DNA of 56,159 nucleotides from Treponema sp. (lineage in GTDB: Bacteria; Spirochaetota; Spirochaetia; Treponematales; Breznakiellaceae): positions 1-56,159 of the forward strand of contig JAIRWM010000160.1 of NCBI GenBank assembly GCA_031268975.1, written 5' to 3'. The position numbers and the translations under genes are program-made. Shown here piece by piece: positions 34,079-41,749 of this stretch (positions are counted from its first letter, which is position 1; every line of letters starts with the position of its first letter). Below the pieces are notes generated by a model that had not been told where the DNA came from, did no database searches, and saw only the letters and a list, made by a program, of their open reading frames with translations.

Positions 34079-35200
34079 CTACTTTAATGTGGATTTTTCG
34101 CCGCTTTGAAAAAGCGCGTTTTCCGCAGGAAAACGGGAAAAATCCCCCATGTTCCTGAAACATTCCGCGTAGGGAGCGCGGGCAACGCCGAATTCGGTAA
34201 CAATCGCGGTAATAAGGCTATTGTCCGTAACGTCAAAGGCCGGGTTAAATACCTTGACGGCATCCGGCGCCATGCGCTCCCTGTACCACATTTCGGTAAC
34301 TTCTTCCGCCCCGCGTTCTTCGATTACAATGTCTTTTCCTTCTTTGACAGACATGTCGATGGTGGAAGTGGGCGCACAGACATAAAACGGAATTCCGTAG
34401 TGCTTTGCGAGAATCGCGACGCAGGAAGTGCCGATTTTGTTCGCCGTATCTCCATTGGCGGCCACCCTGTCACAGCCCACAAAGCAGGCGTTTACCCAGC
34501 CGTTTTTCATCACCACACCCGCCATGTTGTCGCAGATAACGGTGGTGTCCACCCCGGCGGCGGCCATCTCAAACGCTGAAAGCCGCGCGCCCTGAAGGAG
34601 CGGCCGGGTTTCGTCGCAGAACACCCTGAAGTTCATGCCCCGCTCCCTGCCAAGGTGTACCGGGGCCAGGGCCGTTCCGTATTTTACCGCGGCAAGCTGA
34701 CCGGCGTTGCAGTGGGTAAGAATTCCGTCGCCGTCACTGACAAGGGAAAGGCCGTTTTCCCCAATGGCCCTGCAGACCCGGACATCCTCGTCCCGGATAT
34801 CCAGCGCCTCGTCGTGGAGGAATTTTTTTATCGCCGCCGGATTTTCGCCCTTGTGGGCAAGTACCACGCGTTCCATTCGGTTAAGCGCCCAGGAAAGATT
34901 CACCGCGGTGGGCCGTGACGAATCAAGATATTCTTTCGCTTTTTTAAAGCGGGCATAAAAACCACCGTAGTCTTTTTCGCCGATATCCAGCGCGGCCAGG
35001 TACACACCGATTGCCGCCGCGACCCCGATTGCCGGAGCGCCCCTGACCCGCAGAAGGCGTATCGCCTCAAAAATATCCTCCTGCCTGGTTAAATGGAGTA
35101 TTTCTACTTTTCCGGGAAGCTTCGTCTGGTCAATAATTGCAAGGGCTTTTTTTTCTTCGTCAAAAGAGACTGTGTCGATTGACAGTATATTTTCGCTCAT
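34079..35200 (-). CDS. mtnA: S-methyl-5-thioribose-1-phosphate isomerase (MtnA)
   Basis: A 373-residue aldose-ketose isomerase of the eIF2B-like family. RGAPAIG (53-59), catalytic Cys164 (LTHCNAG) and Asp244 (GCDRVAANGDTANKIGT) are conserved. It turns 5-methylthioribose-1-phosphate, or 5-deoxyribose-1-phosphate, into the 1-ulose phosphate. The gene 7 bp upstream is a class II aldolase, which together with MtnA matches the dihydroxyacetone-phosphate shunt that disposes of the SAM by-products methylthioadenosine and 5'-deoxyadenosine. No mtnK or nucleosidase is in the window. With mtnBCD also absent, this shunt is more likely than full methionine salvage. Confidence 0.93.
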   Translation of the reverse strand: MSENILSIDTVSFDEEKKALAIIDQTKLPGKVEILHLTRQEDIFEAIRLLRVRGAPAIGVAAAIGVYLAALDIGEKDYGGFYARFKKAKEYLDSSRPTAVNLSWALNRMERVVLAHKGENPAAIKKFLHDEALDIRDEDVRVCRAIGENGLSLVSDGDGILTHCNAGQLAAVKYGTALAPVHLGRERGMNFRVFCDETRPLLQGARLSAFEMAAAGVDTTVICDNMAGVVMKNGWVNACFVGCDRVAANGDTANKIGTSCVAILAKHYGIPFYVCAPTSTIDMSVKEGKDIVIEERGAEEVTEMWYRERMAPDAVKVFNPAFDVTDNSLITAIVTEFGVARAPYAECFRNMGDFSRFPAENALFQSGEKSTLK

Positions 35201-35207
35201 GTCCCTC

Positions 35208-36080
35208 TTACCTGCTCTTTCCGTGGGCCTCCGGCAGGAGCATGGACAGTACTTCCCGGACTATGGACTCTACATCCCCCGACGATACCGCGCCGGAGGA
35301 ATTTGCCGTCCCGGCGGTCCCTCGGGTGGAGGCCCCGGCAGCACAGGCGGCCCCGCCGGCGGGAACACCGCCGACATCGGCGAGATTGGTCGCCGTATCC
35401 GCGCAGCACGGAGGGACGCCCCCGGTACGGATACCGAGTTTTTCGCGGATGCCGACAATCTCCCGCACCTGTTCGCAGCTTAACACATTCGCCCTGCCGA
35501 TAATGTTGCCGGTGTACATAAGGATCATGGCGTAATGTTCCATTGCCTCAAGGCGATACCACGCTTCCATAAGGCTTGTTCCCCAGGCAAGGGCGCCGTG
35601 GTTCGCGAGAAGCAGGGCGTTATAGTCCCGGCAGTACGGGGCCACGGAATCGGGTATGCCCTGCGAACCCGGCGCTTCGTAGTGGACAACCGGAACAGTG
35701 CCAAGGTTTACCAGGGCTTCCGGATATATTGCCTTGTCAAGGCTTATACCCGCTATCGCAAAGGATGTGGAGACCGGAGGATGAGCGTGGCACACACCCA
35801 GTACACCGGGATTCTCGTTGTAAATCCGGAGGTGCATTTTTATTTCCGAAGACACGCTGAGCTTTCCCTGCTGAACGACCCTGCCGGAAAGATCCATTTT
35901 TACGAGTTCTTCGGCCTTCATAAATCCTTTGGATACCCCGGTCGGGGTGGCCCAAATTTGAGTTTCCGATACTTTGCAGGTGATATTCCCGTCGTTGGCC
36001 GCGACAAAGTTTTTGTCGTACATGCGCCGGCCTATTTCGAGAATACCCTGTTTTGCTTCGTAATCATTGGGATACTGCAT
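35208..36080 (-). CDS. Class II aldolase (fuculose-phosphate aldolase family) with encapsulation-peptide-like tail
   Basis: A 290-residue protein. The aldolase domain (1-215) has the zinc ligands His98, His100 (CHAHPP) and His161 (ANHGALAWG) and catalytic Glu79. Residues 222-268 form a Gly/Ala/Ser-rich linker, and 269-283 (DVESIVREVLSMLLP) form a short amphipathic helix: the layout of bacterial microcompartment encapsulation peptides. FucA proteins are normally about 215 residues. It would split a ketose-1-phosphate into DHAP and an aldehyde. ATG 36080 has AAGAGG upstream; the frame extends 7 codons further. It overlaps the upstream gene by 17 nt and precedes mtnA by 7 bp. Confidence 0.88.
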   Translation of the reverse strand: MQYPNDYEAKQGILEIGRRMYDKNFVAANDGNITCKVSETQIWATPTGVSKGFMKAEELVKMDLSGRVVQQGKLSVSSEIKMHLRIYNENPGVLGVCHAHPPVSTSFAIAGISLDKAIYPEALVNLGTVPVVHYEAPGSQGIPDSVAPYCRDYNALLLANHGALAWGTSLMEAWYRLEAMEHYAMILMYTGNIIGRANVLSCEQVREIVGIREKLGIRTGGVPPCCADTATNLADVGGVPAGGAACAAGASTRGTAGTANSSGAVSSGDVESIVREVLSMLLPEAHGKSR

Positions 36081-37428
36081 CGCCAGCCTCTTGGGGAACA
36101 TCCTGATCCGGCGGAATATCGGTTAGTTCGGACTGCCCGCCATCCGCCGGGGCTTCGGCTCTTTCTTCTTCCCAAATACCACCGTCCGCCGGCAGCCGGG
36201 CGTCTTCTTCCCAGCCGCCGGCCGATCCGGCCAGGGCGCTGTCAAGAAGCGCGTCCCCGCCGGCGCTCCGGTTGCGGACCATATCGCCGTAGCCTTCACG
36301 GGAAATAAAAACGGCGCCGCCCATTTGGGCGCTGTTGGCGTCCTGTAAAGGGGCGTCGTTCCCGTAAATAACGCAGAGGCTGCCGGGCCCTTTAAAAAAA
36401 TCGCCGGAGGAAAAAACGGCCCCGCCGTATCTTCCGGCGCTGTTTTTCCTCATGTTCCCGCCCAAAAGGGCAAGCGCGGAGGTGTTATCCGCGGCAACGG
36501 CGCCGCCGTATTCGGCGCTTTTATTATCTCCCAGTTCTCCGTCTTTCAGGGTAAAAATGCAGCGTTCGATAAGCGCAAGGCCGCCGCCCGAACCGCCGGA
36601 TGTATTCCCGGTAATGCCGCCGCCTTCCATTGTTAACGCCGCTCCCCGGTTAAGGACGAGTCCGCCCCCGGCCACCACGGCCTCGTTACCGGAAATGACG
36701 CCGCCTTTGAGGGTAAAGACGCCGCCTTCGTAAACGGCGACCCCGCCACCGCCTTCGGCCCTGTTTTCGCGGACTTCCCCGCTTTCCATAACCAGTTCCG
36801 TACCGGCGCCAACGATGGCGATGCCGCCGCCCACGCCGGACGACACGTTACCGGAGACCGAACCGCCCCTGAGATAGAGCTTTCCGCCGGGAGCGACGGC
36901 GATGCCGCCGCCGACAGTGGCCGACCGGTTCCCGGTAATTACCGCTCCCCGGCCAAGAATAACCTGGGCGCCGCCGCCGATCCCGATGCCGCCCCCTTCG
37001 CCGGCGCTGCTGCCCCCGGAAATTTCAACATCCTCAAAACAGACGGACGACACTCCCTTAACGAGAATTACCCGGCGATCCGCGTCCCGGCCGGAAAGTA
37101 CGGCCTTTTTGCCGTTAAAACTCCTCCCCCGAATCGTTATGAGGTCCCTGCCGGTACCCTGGATGATAAACACCCGCTCGGCGCTTGACGACTGTTCGCT
37201 TGACAGATCCAGCGTTCCTAAAAGGGTAATGGTTTTTGTGTTTGTCTGGGATGAGACAACAAGAGCCTTAAACAGGGATTTAAAAGGCGTTTCCTCGGAA
37301 AAGCCGTCGTTCCGGTCACTGCCGTTCGCGCTGACATAGTAGGTGCCGTAAGGGGCTTCTATCGGGGCGCCCACACAGCCCGCCAAAAACAAAGAGGCAA
37401 GAAAAAAAGGCAAAATCCGGGTTTTCAT
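36064..37428 (-). CDS. Lipoprotein with right-handed beta-helix repeats
   Basis: A 454-residue lipoprotein starting at ATG 37428, with signal LFLAGC (Cys about 18). An N-terminal DUF1565-like segment (GTYYVSANGSDRNDGFSEETPFKSLFKAL) is typical of pectate-lyase-fold surface proteins. From about 130 to 390 it has imperfect repeats of roughly 25-40 residues, rich in GGG and ISGN/ITGN (for example GGVISGNEAVVAGGGLVL), forming a parallel beta helix. The C-terminus is Ala, Asp, Glu-rich and low in complexity. It likely faces outward and binds or degrades polysaccharide, though no catalytic residues are evident. It overlaps the aldolase start by 17 nt in the same direction, an odd operon partner. Confidence 0.82.
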   Translation of the reverse strand: MKTRILPFFLASLFLAGCVGAPIEAPYGTYYVSANGSDRNDGFSEETPFKSLFKALVVSSQTNTKTITLLGTLDLSSEQSSSAERVFIIQGTGRDLITIRGRSFNGKKAVLSGRDADRRVILVKGVSSVCFEDVEISGGSSAGEGGGIGIGGGAQVILGRGAVITGNRSATVGGGIAVAPGGKLYLRGGSVSGNVSSGVGGGIAIVGAGTELVMESGEVRENRAEGGGGVAVYEGGVFTLKGGVISGNEAVVAGGGLVLNRGAALTMEGGGITGNTSGGSGGGLALIERCIFTLKDGELGDNKSAEYGGAVAADNTSALALLGGNMRKNSAGRYGGAVFSSGDFFKGPGSLCVIYGNDAPLQDANSAQMGGAVFISREGYGDMVRNRSAGGDALLDSALAGSAGGWEEDARLPADGGIWEEERAEAPADGGQSELTDIPPDQDVPQEAGDAVSQ

Positions 37429-37518
37429 ATTCTGTAGGGATAAACTGCCATAAAAACCCCTTTTAGGCAATACCGCGTAATGCCGCCTTGAAAAACTGGA
37501 AATATTCGGGAGATGTCG

Positions 37519-37524
37519 TATACT
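37519..37524 (+). promoter_or_regulatory. TATACT -10 element before the proline symporter, predicted leaderless
   Basis: TATACT lies 7 nt upstream of ATG 37532, and no ribosome-binding site is visible. A TGGAAA sequence 16 nt further upstream (37497-37502) is a weak -35. Confidence 0.4.
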
Positions 37525-37531
37525 TTTAACC

Positions 37532-39052
37532 ATGACGGGAATAGTTGTGGTGATGTTGTTGTATGTAACGGGGATGGTCCTTGTTGGGGTGTTTTCGTTC
37601 GGCAAGTCAGGCTCGGTTTCGGATTATTTCATCGGCGGCAGACGGCTCAATTCCTGGGTGGCGGCGTTTTCGGCTTTTTCCGGCGATATGTCGGGCTGGC
37701 TCATGCTGGGTTTCGCCGGGGCGGTATATGTCAATGGAACCGGCGAAGCGTGGATTGCCGCGGGACTGGTACTGGGCTGCGCCCTCAGTTGGTTTTTGGT
37801 GGCAAAACGGCTCCGCCGGTATTCCCTGGCCGCGAAATGTTCCATCACCATTCCTGAATATCTTGAAAACCGTTTCCGGGACTCTTCCCACACCCTGCGG
37901 CTTGTTTCGGCGATTTTTATCGTCCTGTTTTTTACCGTTTATACCGCGGCGGGCTTTGTCGCCTGCGGCACCCTGTTTTCCCAGATTTTCGGCATTGATT
38001 ACAACATAGCCCTTTTGGCGGGGGTTTTGGTGATTTTGGCCTATGCCACTCTGGGCGGATTCCGGGCGGTATGCTGGACCGATTTTTTCCAGGCGCTGAT
38101 CATGCTTATTACAATAATCTCGGTTCCCCTTCTCCTCCTTTTTCTCAACGGCGGCTTTTCAGTACTGTCGGAACTATCCCCCGCTTTTCTTAATCCTTTC
38201 CGGAGCGGTTCCGGCGCGCCCACCCCGGCGTTCAAGGTTATTTCGGGCCTTACCTGGGGGCTTGGCTATTTCGGCATGCCGCACATATTGATACGGTTCA
38301 TGGCGATAAAAAACGAAAAAGCCGTTTCCCGCGCCGGGTTTATCGCCGTGGCGGCCGTCGCCGTTTCCCTTGGCTTTATGATACTCATGGGGCTGGCGGG
38401 AGCTGCCGTAAACCCAGAGATTCCCGAACCGTCCCGGCTTTTTATTCTGTCCATTCAGAAAATTTTTACCGATTTTGACGCCGTCATGCCGTCGCCGTTT
38501 TTGGGAGGATTTTTTCTCTGCGGCATCTTTGCCAGCATCATGTCTACCGCCGATTCCCAGCTCATCCTGAGCGCATCGGCCCTTACCAACGACTTGTATC
38601 AGGGACTGGTCAAAAGGGAGGGAAAGGACAAACACTTCCTCCTGTTCGGCCGCGTTTCTGTCGCCGCGGTATCCATCGCAGCCTACCTCATCGCGCGCAG
38701 CCGCTTTTCCGCCCTGACGACCCTTGTGTCCAGCGCCTGGGCGGGCTTTGGCTCGGCCTTCGGCGCTTTAATCCTCCTTTCCCTGTACTGGAAACGACTG
38801 ACCCGCGAAGGCGCCATAGCCGGAATTTGCGCGGGAGGCCTTACGGTAGTCATCTGGGATTATTTTCCCCTTGTCCTTCGCGGCGCGGTCCGGATAAATC
38901 TGGAAACGGCGACGGGCCTTTACTCCCTGACGCCGGGCTTCTGTGTTTCCCTGCTTTGTATTGTCGTGGTAAGTCTGCTCTCGAAACCGCCTTCAAAAGA
39001 AATTCTGGACGAATTTGAAATAGCCTCCGCCGCGCCGGTTTTTGAAGAATGA
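37532..39052 (+). CDS. putP: Sodium/proline symporter (SSF family)
   Basis: A 506-residue sodium:solute symporter with about 13 membrane helices. The N-terminal region (VSDYFIGGRRLNSWVAAFSAFSGDMSGWLMLGFAGAVY) is characteristic of PutP, as are the SSF segments YATLGGFRAVCWTDFFQALIM and GIFASIMSTADSQLILSASALTNDLY, which contain conserved Na+-coordinating Ser residues. It imports proline with Na+. The full length matches the family. No putA or regulator is adjacent. A TATACT element is 7 nt before the ATG. The downstream 670 bp is a repeat-rich gap. Confidence 0.93.
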   Translation: MTGIVVVMLLYVTGMVLVGVFSFGKSGSVSDYFIGGRRLNSWVAAFSAFSGDMSGWLMLGFAGAVYVNGTGEAWIAAGLVLGCALSWFLVAKRLRRYSLAAKCSITIPEYLENRFRDSSHTLRLVSAIFIVLFFTVYTAAGFVACGTLFSQIFGIDYNIALLAGVLVILAYATLGGFRAVCWTDFFQALIMLITIISVPLLLLFLNGGFSVLSELSPAFLNPFRSGSGAPTPAFKVISGLTWGLGYFGMPHILIRFMAIKNEKAVSRAGFIAVAAVAVSLGFMILMGLAGAAVNPEIPEPSRLFILSIQKIFTDFDAVMPSPFLGGFFLCGIFASIMSTADSQLILSASALTNDLYQGLVKREGKDKHFLLFGRVSVAAVSIAAYLIARSRFSALTTLVSSAWAGFGSAFGALILLSLYWKRLTREGAIAGICAGGLTVVIWDYFPLVLRGAVRINLETATGLYSLTPGFCVSLLCIVVVSLLSKPPSKEILDEFEIASAAPVFEE

Positions 39053-39722: not shown

Positions 39723-40511
39723 ATGGAAAAGGATATTGCCTGTATCCGCGGAAAGGGCGCGTTCATTATCGATATGGACGGGGTTATTTACCACGGCAAC
39801 CAGCTTCTGAAAGGAGCGCTGGAGTTCGTGCAGTGGATGGAAAAAAACAACAAGGCGTTTCTTTTTCTTACCAATTCCAGCGAAAGAAGCCCGCTTGAAC
39901 TTTCGCAAAAACTTTCCCGGCTGGGCATAGAAGTTGATCCTGAACATTTTTATACCAGCGCCCTGGCCACGGCGGCTTTTCTTGCCACCCAGTGTCCGGG
40001 CGGCTCGGTCTACGCCATCGGGGAGCCGGGGCTTATTCAGGCCCTTTACGATCAGGGGTTTACGATGAACAACGTAAATCCCGACTACGTGGTTGTGGGG
40101 GAAGGCCGCAGCTATAATCTTGAGTCCCTTGAACGGGCGGTACGGCTGGTAACGGAAGGCTCGCGGCTTATCGGAACAAATCCCGACTTGAGCGGCCCGG
40201 TCGAAGGCGGCGTTATTGTTCCCGCCTGCGGGGCTCTTGTCGCGCCCATAGAAATGGCCGCGGGGAAAAAAGCGTATTTTGTCGGAAAGCCGAATCCGCT
40301 GATGATGCGTCATGGCCTGCGGCGGCTGGACGCCAAACGGGAGAACACGGCGATTATCGGCGACCGCATGGATACCGACATACAGGCCGGCGTAGAGTCG
40401 GAAATAGAAACGATACTGGTTCTTTCCGGGGTTACCCGGCCCGCGGATATCCACCGTTTTCCGTACCGGCCCCGGCATGTTCTTGAAGGTGTTTTTGAGA
40501 TTCCCGAATAA
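39723..40511 (+). CDS. HAD-IIA family sugar phosphatase (NagD-like)
   Basis: A 262-residue HAD hydrolase with a C2 cap. Motif I IIDMDGVIYHG carries nucleophile Asp17 and Asp19; motif II is FLFLTNSSERSP; the lysine lies in VGKPNPLMM; motif IV is IIGDRMDTDIQAG. This pattern and length match NagD/AraL-type phosphatases acting on nucleotides or sugar phosphates. I start it at ATG 39723 because a promoter lies just upstream and the homologous region begins there; the frame could extend 30 codons into repeat DNA. Its stop overlaps the hydF start by 1 nt (TAATG). Confidence 0.9.
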   Translation: MEKDIACIRGKGAFIIDMDGVIYHGNQLLKGALEFVQWMEKNNKAFLFLTNSSERSPLELSQKLSRLGIEVDPEHFYTSALATAAFLATQCPGGSVYAIGEPGLIQALYDQGFTMNNVNPDYVVVGEGRSYNLESLERAVRLVTEGSRLIGTNPDLSGPVEGGVIVPACGALVAPIEMAAGKKAYFVGKPNPLMMRHGLRRLDAKRENTAIIGDRMDTDIQAGVESEIETILVLSGVTRPADIHRFPYRPRHVLEGVFEIPE

Positions 40512-41749
40512 TGGGCATGAACGACACGCCTCTGGCGGACAGGATCCACATCGGTTTTTTCGGACGGCGCAACGCGGGCAAGTCGAGTCTTGTTAACGCC
40601 GTCACCGGGCAGGATCTTGTTATTGTTTCGGACGTTAAGGGAACCACGACGGATCCTGTTTCAAAATCAATGGAACTGCTGCCGCTCGGCCCGGTCCTTG
40701 TTATCGACACCCCCGGCATCGACGACTCAGGCGATCTCGGCGGGCTGCGGGTGCGGAAGGCAAAACAGGTTCTTAACAAAACCGACATCGCCGTTCTTGT
40801 GACCGACGCCCGCGACAAAGCGTTAAGCGGGGAGGAACGGGATCTCCTTTCCGCGTTCAAGGCAAAAGGGATCCCCTGTGTTATAGCCTGGAACAAATGC
40901 GATCTTCTTAATGAAGAAGACGCGGCCGAATCCCCGAGGGGCCCCGCCGATTCCTCCCGGAAAGAAATTTTTGTGTCGGCAAAAACCGGCGGCAACATTT
41001 CCGGACTAAAGGAATGTATCGCGGCGCTTTCGAAAACCGAAGAACCAAAATTGCGGATTGTCGCCGACCTTATCCGTCCGGGGGATTTTGTGGTGCTTGT
41101 TACGCCCATCGACAAGGCGGCCCCAAAGGGAAGGTTGATCCTCCCCCAGCAGCAAACCATACGGGACGTGCTGGAAGCCGACGCGGCGGCGATTGTCGTA
41201 AAAGAGTTCGAACTGAGGGAAACCCTGGAACAGCTTGGAAAAAAACCGTCCCTGGTTATTACCGACAGCCAGGTCTTCGCGAAAGTTTCCGCCGACACTC
41301 CGCCGGACATTCCCCTTACGTCGTTCTCCATTCTTTTTGCCCGGTTTAAGGGTTTTTTACTCCCCGCCGTGCGGGGCGTAAAAACCCTCGACAGTATAGC
41401 CCGCGGCGACAGGATCCTTATCTGCGAAGGCTGCACCCACCACCGTCAATGCGACGATATCGGCACGGTAAAACTTCCCCGCTGGATAAAGCAATACACA
41501 GGCGAAGCGGCGGAGTTCGCCTTTAGCTCAGGCGGCGAATTTCCCGGCGACCTTTCCCCCTACAGGCTCGTCCTCCATTGCGGCGCGTGTATGCTGGGCG
41601 GACGGGAAACGCGGTACCGCCAGGAATGCGCCGCGGATCAGGGCGTGCCGTTTACAAATTACGGAATTGCCATCGCCTTTATGCAGGGCATACTCCGAAG
41701 AAGCCTTGAGGTCTTTCCCCATATACTTGAGGAGCTGGGCGATCAATGA
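40511..41749 (+). CDS. hydF: [FeFe]-hydrogenase maturation GTPase HydF
   Basis: A 412-residue scaffold protein that assembles and transfers the 2Fe subcluster of [FeFe] hydrogenase. The GTPase domain has G1 GRRNAGKSS (18-26), G3 DTPG (66-69) and G4 NKCD (128-131). The C-terminal iron-sulfur site has C308-T-H310 and HCGAC (356-360), the HydF signature. It implies that the organism makes [FeFe] hydrogenase; hydE, hydG and hydA are not in the window. It is coupled to the HAD gene upstream (TAATG) and the aspartase-like gene downstream (ATGA overlap). Confidence 0.95.
   Translation: MGMNDTPLADRIHIGFFGRRNAGKSSLVNAVTGQDLVIVSDVKGTTTDPVSKSMELLPLGPVLVIDTPGIDDSGDLGGLRVRKAKQVLNKTDIAVLVTDARDKALSGEERDLLSAFKAKGIPCVIAWNKCDLLNEEDAAESPRGPADSSRKEIFVSAKTGGNISGLKECIAALSKTEEPKLRIVADLIRPGDFVVLVTPIDKAAPKGRLILPQQQTIRDVLEADAAAIVVKEFELRETLEQLGKKPSLVITDSQVFAKVSADTPPDIPLTSFSILFARFKGFLLPAVRGVKTLDSIARGDRILICEGCTHHRQCDDIGTVKLPRWIKQYTGEAAEFAFSSGGEFPGDLSPYRLVLHCGACMLGGRETRYRQECAADQGVPFTNYGIAIAFMQGILRRSLEVFPHILEELGDQ

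Follow-up and report, generated by a model that had tools for sequence, protein, structure and literature searches.

The locus described here raised the question of where a class II aldolase with an extended C-terminus would act, and on which sugar phosphate. The window, that is, the whole 56,159-nucleotide stretch of Treponema sp. DNA that was analysed, encodes a PF00596-type aldolase of 297 aa (35208..36101, −), a predicted DHAP-shunt enzyme with a C-terminal encapsulation peptide, whose open reading frame ends in ...SSGAVSSGDVESIVREVLSMLLPEAHGKSR. Its catalytic domain (residues 1–225; 35427..36101, −) was conserved across an alignment of 25 homologues, with E86, H105, H107 and H168 invariant in 25/25 rows. 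These residues correspond to the Glu/three-His set (metal ligands and base) of class II aldolases. The solved class II aldolases that match the protein are 207–222 aa long, and the matches end at or before residue 224; about 72 residues are therefore a C-terminal extension. A Gly-rich, repetitive (beta-helix-like) open reading frame (36064–37605, −) overlaps the start of the aldolase gene by 38 bases at its 3′ end.

The extension opens with a conserved Gly/Cys stretch, GGVPPCCADTATNLADVG (residues 226–243; 35373..35426, −), which leads from domain to linker and had a column entropy of 1.18 bits. Its GGxPPCC...N-DV motif is conserved in the tailed clade, and a metal or disulfide function is possible. 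A variable Gly/Ala/Ser-rich linker, predicted to be disordered, follows (residues 244–273; 35283..35372, −); in the 25-homologue alignment mean column entropy was 2.49 bits over residues 244–274, and AlphaFold assigned residues 249–269 a pLDDT below 50. The amphipathic, putative encapsulation helix comes next (residues 274–288, core DVESIVREVLSML; 35238..35282, −). Conservation and AlphaFold both delimit it: mean column entropy was 1.53 bits over residues 276–288, positions 277, 280, 284, 285 and 288 were hydrophobic in 96–100% of rows, and a helix was modelled at 274–288 with a block mean pLDDT of about 77–79. The protein closes with a short charged end, LPEAHGKSR (35211..35237, −), which is not conserved. 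Encapsulation peptides are 15–20 residue amphipathic helices on a flexible linker (PMC8217296, PMC11157265), and the shape of the aldolase tail therefore fits, with a terminal position behind a flexible linker and a conserved hydrophobic face. The hydrophobic moment of the helix was reached by only 2% of shuffles, a modest result on its own, and by 9–26% in several homologues, so it was rejected as too weak to be the sole support for targeting. The stronger evidence is the conservation of the tail, its in-register likeness to cargo peptides of the organism's own bacterial microcompartment (BMC), and its co-occurrence with shell genes.

Shell genes were found elsewhere in the genome (G000; 93% complete, 4.5% contamination). 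All four PF00936 and three PF03319 matches lay on a single contig, C204, where the four BMC domains and three pentamer genes are accompanied by a CoA-acylating aldehyde dehydrogenase (AldDH), PduL, PduS and three DeoC aldolases. The order is deoC-deoC-pduL-BMC-P-AldDH-pduS-like-BMC-T-BMC-H-BMC-P-BMC-H-BMC-P-deoC, the first deoC being further upstream, with a kinase, a dehydrogenase and a set of ABC transporter genes in between. The surroundings hold sugar ABC transporters along with sugar kinases and dehydrogenases, and the BMC core itself adjoins two sets of rbs-type ABC transporter genes as well as FGGY kinases. All three deoC genes, which accompany one BMC core (L009:3917–11423 and L008:8007–8795), exceeded the TIGR00126 cut-off, and their products carry N-terminal peptide-like helices. 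A stray or contaminant contig was considered and is unlikely, as the same locus occurs in a congener (G001; 75–97% identity per gene) and closely similar loci occur in other Treponema (G006, G007, G019). In combining a DeoC-type aldolase, AldDH and shell genes, the locus follows the sugar phosphate utilization (SPU) type. RpiB was absent from the C204 locus; the genome has it on contigs C115 and C100 instead. Judged by gene content, C204 is a DeoC-based, SPU-like locus with RpiB elsewhere. Its DeoC aldolases are the resident signature enzymes of the organelle, and the window aldolase, encoded apart from the shell genes, would act as an additional input.

These results bear on the first-pass annotation, which had read the tail as a linker plus amphipathic helix and had proposed a microcompartment encoded outside the window. 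The former reading is confirmed, with about 72 extra residues that comprise a conserved helix and a variable, predicted-disordered linker. The latter is supported by C204, on which the BMC-H, BMC-T and BMC-P shell genes and the CoA-acylating aldehyde dehydrogenase that it had suggested searching for were all present, together with PduL and PduS.

We compared the aldolase tail with the N-terminal peptides of the C204 cargo. Ungapped scores were 38 for DeoC3, 27 for DeoC1, 25 for DeoC2 and 24 for AldDH, against a background maximum of 24 among 72 other protein termini of the window. In these pairings, VESIVREVLSMLL of the tail aligned with IERIAREVLEEIA of DeoC3, and DVESIVREVLSMLL with DINEIVKQVTASVM of DeoC1. 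The tail thus resembles the peptides of other cargo of an organelle whose shell is encoded in the same organism. The PduA motifs AMVKAA and AATDAGAAAA are said to line a peptide-binding groove (PMC11157265); the shell hexamer here reads ...DAMVKAANV... and ...VKAAVDAGAEAAK..., near the PduA groove motifs in a by-eye comparison.

To determine whether tail and shell occur together, two sets of genomes were surveyed, 393 from spirochaetes and 29 named genomes. PF00936 was present in 48/393 spirochaete genomes and a close aldolase homologue in seven. All five spirochaetes with a tailed homologue (G000, G041, G054, G065 and G391) carried PF00936, and neither of the two with an untailed one (G238 and G191) did; for tailed genomes against the rest of the 393, Fisher p = 2e-5. 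G391 is a weak case, with a single weak BMC domain and no PF03319. In the named set, PF00936 accompanied the tailed homologue in 21/27 genomes and was missing from both genomes that encode untailed proteins (L033 and L035). When the sets were pooled, shell genes were found in 26/32 tailed and 0/4 untailed cases (Fisher p = 0.0036, relatedness not corrected). Tailed homologues in organisms lacking microcompartments had been named in advance as evidence against targeting. The association stood up in the pooled counts; it failed for six tailed genomes, all drafts (G002, G003, G004, G005, G027 and G029), in which PF00936 and PF03319 were not detected, G002 being an apparently 62%-complete assembly. 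These six genomes are the main loose end of the co-occurrence. Taken together, the tail features, the cargo similarity and the co-occurrence indicate that the tail very probably sends the aldolase into the organelle, and we infer that the shell concerned is the one encoded on C204.

Two further homologues are of note. In an Oscillospiraceae MAG whose genome lacks shell genes, the aldolase is naturally fused to MtnK, with the kinase in place of the tail (L033:5986–7959). A 0.7 Mb Hadesarchaeal MAG in which no shell genes were detected encodes an aldolase of 42% identity whose terminal helix is similar (L038:2040–2786).

Structure and sequence comparisons were then considered for the substrate. 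Foldseek matched the aldolase to DrdA with bound DHAP (6btg, TMt 0.90) and also to 6btd; the likeness to DrdA was about equal to that to YgbL and FucA, and the best structural match was YgbL. By phmmer, the protein scored 62 bits to DrdA (6btd) vs 88 bits to YgbL (6voq), and its identity to DrdA is about 26%. Sequence and fold do not single out DrdA, and the substrate assignment therefore rests on gene neighbourhood. The neighbour is mtnA (34079..35200, −; TIGR00512 402 bits, cut-off 279), encoding S-methyl-5-thioribose-1-phosphate isomerase, which also converts 5-deoxyribose-1-P; it follows the aldolase stop after 7 bases, in the same orientation. The genome also encodes an MTA phosphorylase (L085; TIGR01694 288.6 vs cut-off 274.85) and an MTA/SAH nucleosidase. 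No match to MtnK was obtained in it, in a search that ran without a control and so shows little. The pattern of both MTA enzymes with MtnK undetected fits the phosphorylase variant of the DHAP shunt. Acireductone dioxygenase was above cut-off in 0 of 18 genomes with the aldolase gene, B. subtilis being among the controls that matched, and the usual methionine salvage route is therefore incomplete.

MtnK, MtnA and an aldolase constitute the DHAP shunt (PMC6079011, PMC10986504). The window aldolase has the class II fold with three His ligands and a catalytic Glu, and the clustering with MtnA and MtnK/MtnP is seen as an adjacent mtnA, MtnK-MtnA in relatives and MtnP in the genome. With mtnA 7 bases away and an MTA phosphorylase present, we consider it most likely that the aldolase serves the DHAP shunt, in 5′-deoxyadenosine/methylthioadenosine salvage, where it would release DHAP and acetaldehyde or methylthioacetaldehyde. 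The window also contains HydF, the [FeFe] hydrogenase maturation GTPase (40511–41749, +), whose radical-SAM partners HydE/HydG would supply 5′-deoxyadenosine.

In Clostridia, pathway and shell share one locus. Nine regions (L069–L074, L080, L081 and L083) have MtnK and MtnA directly before PduL, AldDH, PduS and shell genes, both exceeding curated cut-offs (MtnK TIGR01767, 426 bits). The tailed aldolase was visible at the head of the locus in 6/9, and in the others was outside the fetched stretch or on a different contig. In L071, for which every gene was annotated, the order is aldolase-CoA-disulfide reductase-two CoA-transferase genes-MtnK-MtnA-PduL-AldDH-PduS, followed by BMC-T-BMC-H-BMC-H-DhaK-DhaL-LacI-four BMC-P; this MtnK-MtnA microcompartment locus (L071:3927–18970) thus has the reductase, the two CoA-transferase genes and DhaK/DhaL besides. 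L072, by contrast, carries a sugar ABC transporter. Across these two loci, peptide-like ends were found only on the aldolase, AldDH (L071) and PduL (L072), with MtnK and MtnA lacking a convincing peptide. One Treponema region (L028) reads aldolase-ABC transporter-MtnK-MtnA, with no shell genes in the stretch. As far as gene arrangement tells, in Treponema the aldolase and mtnA form a satellite to an organelle of the DeoC ('SPU') type.

The same observations were weighed against other explanations. The examples given in the first-pass annotation pointed to fucose/rhamnose chemistry, which would have the enzyme cleave L-fuculose-1-P or L-rhamnulose-1-P to lactaldehyde in a PVM/GRM5-type organelle. 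Class II aldolases with a C-terminal peptide do exist in PVM, GRM5 and ACI loci (PMC8217296, PMC4207490), and the FucA fold is common to the window aldolase. However, the protein fell under every cut-off when scored against NCBIfam models, and far under those for FucA (TIGR01086, 54.8 bits vs 400) and for L-rhamnulose-phosphate aldolase (PRK03634, 41.5 vs 170). Moreover, its neighbour is mtnA, its relatives carry mtnK and not a fucose/rhamnose kinase or isomerase, and its own organelle has DeoC, which gives acetaldehyde. The assignment was rejected on family scores and neighbours; we regard it as improbable, and the DHAP shunt as more likely. An identity as MtnB, the methylthioribulose-1-P dehydratase of classical methionine salvage, with an incidental tail, is a still more distant prospect. 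MtnB is itself related to class II aldolases and can likewise be encoded next to mtnA, and its model (TIGR03328) did match, yet the 81.6 bits obtained were below the cut-off of 137 and below the scores of decarboxylase/aldolase models. The missing acireductone dioxygenase counts against it in all 18 genomes, and a BMC with AldDH suits an aldehyde product. The score and the missing dioxygenase led us to discard MtnB.

A third explanation leaves the chemistry aside and concerns the tail, whose helix might serve self-association (condensation or an oligomer contact) or bind a cytosolic protein such as MtnA rather than the shell. This would account for the six genomes that have a tailed homologue but no detected shell genes, and a short amphipathic helix alone is a weak signal. 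Against this, untailed homologues coincide with the absence of shell genes, the tail resembles the organelle's own cargo peptides, and in Clostridia the gene lies within a BMC locus. We consider a non-shell function unlikely, to much the same degree as the fucose/rhamnose assignment, if marginally less so.

The reading that we prefer is that two genes of the window make up a DHAP-shunt unit, one for an aldolase with a BMC encapsulation peptide at its C-terminus and, after it, one for MtnA, and we put its probability, including the working proposed below, at roughly 0.78. The MTA phosphorylase encoded in the genome would convert 5′-deoxyadenosine, which radical SAM enzymes leave as a by-product, or methylthioadenosine to 5-deoxyribose-1-P or methylthioribose-1-P. 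MtnA, which has no encapsulation peptide, would isomerise the product to the ribulose-1-phosphate, both steps taking place in the cytosol. The tail helix would dock on the inner face of the C204-encoded shell and pull the aldolase into the lumen, and the ribulose-1-phosphate would enter the shell, where the tethered enzyme would split it into DHAP and acetaldehyde (or methylthioacetaldehyde). The CoA-acylating dehydrogenase and PduL encoded on C204, enclosed in the same shell, would turn the acetaldehyde into acetyl-CoA and acetyl-phosphate, while electrons would be handled by PduS. Tagged DeoC in the same shell would feed the same aldehyde from 2-deoxyribose-5-P, and two deoxypentose-phosphate routes would meet in a single organelle that processes acetaldehyde.

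A broader proposal, held with less assurance and still on balance favoured, is that of a DHAP-shunt microcompartment whose signature enzyme is the aldolase of 5′-deoxyadenosine/methylthioadenosine salvage. In Clostridia it would be self-contained, with MtnK and MtnA encoded alongside, and in termite-gut Treponema the aldolase-mtnA pair would be a satellite sharing the DeoC shell. If true, a group of so far unassigned class-II-aldolase microcompartments would gain a function, and the disposal of radical-SAM by-products would be connected with bacterial organelles, two fields that stand apart in the literature searched. 5′-Deoxyadenosine is produced in quantity by anaerobes rich in radical SAM and glycyl-radical enzymes. 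Fermentation of acetaldehyde inside a shell would explain how such anaerobes could draw on 5′-deoxyadenosine for carbon and energy, and the toxic acetaldehyde from recycling would be both made and used within the organelle. E. coli with the shunt cannot ferment 5-deoxyribose (PMC10986504).

In the literature searched, no link between the DHAP shunt (mtnA/mtnK) and a microcompartment was found; the Clostridia locus type may already be labelled in supplementary BMC catalogues. One study of Acetobacterium woodii describes the methylthioribose kinase that neighbours a BMC cluster as 'unrelated to BMC function' (PMC7593272). PVM, GRM5, ACI, SPU-like and some MIC loci were already known to encode class II aldolases that bear a C-terminal peptide. 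In SPU-like, PVM-like/CoAT, MIC and ACI BMCs the class II aldolase is the presumed signature enzyme, for which the substrate is either not assigned or thought to be fuculose/rhamnulose-P (PMC4207490, PMC4149025, PMC8217296, PMC8156839). These systems share PduL and AldDH with the loci described here, the ACI aldolase shares the C-terminal peptide, and CoAT loci have two CoA-transferase genes, as in L071. Unlike L071, the CoAT locus gene table and the main-text descriptions of class-II-aldolase BMCs name no MtnK/MtnA, and the PVM-like/CoAT BMC was rejected as an identical system on the C. indolis gene table, which has neither mtnA nor mtnK. The GRM5 fucose/rhamnose BMC of C. phytofermentans (PMC3557285) similarly has a BMC-encoded aldolase that releases an aldehyde and DHAP, but with lactaldehyde/propanediol chemistry, a glycyl-radical dehydratase and other neighbours.

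The closest parallels are on the pathway side and the shell side. As in the DHAP shunt and 5-deoxyribose disposal (MtnN or MtnP, MtnK, MtnA and Ald2, or DrdK-DrdI-DrdA; PMC6079011, PMC10986504), MtnA is paired here with a class II aldolase of the DrdA fold (6btd/6btg), entry is by phosphorylase or kinase, and DHAP and acetaldehyde are the expected products. Unlike DrdA, the distantly related window aldolase carries a linker-helix tail, and its pathway is tied to a microcompartment. As in SPU BMCs (PMC4207490, PMC8217296), C204 has DeoC, an acetaldehyde-type AldDH, PduL, PduS and BMC-H/T/P. The SPU definition includes RpiB (PMC8217296), whereas C204 lacks it and has the tailed class II aldolase and mtnA as an extra satellite, and the Clostridia loci hold MtnK, MtnA and the class II aldolase where SPU loci have DeoC and RpiB.
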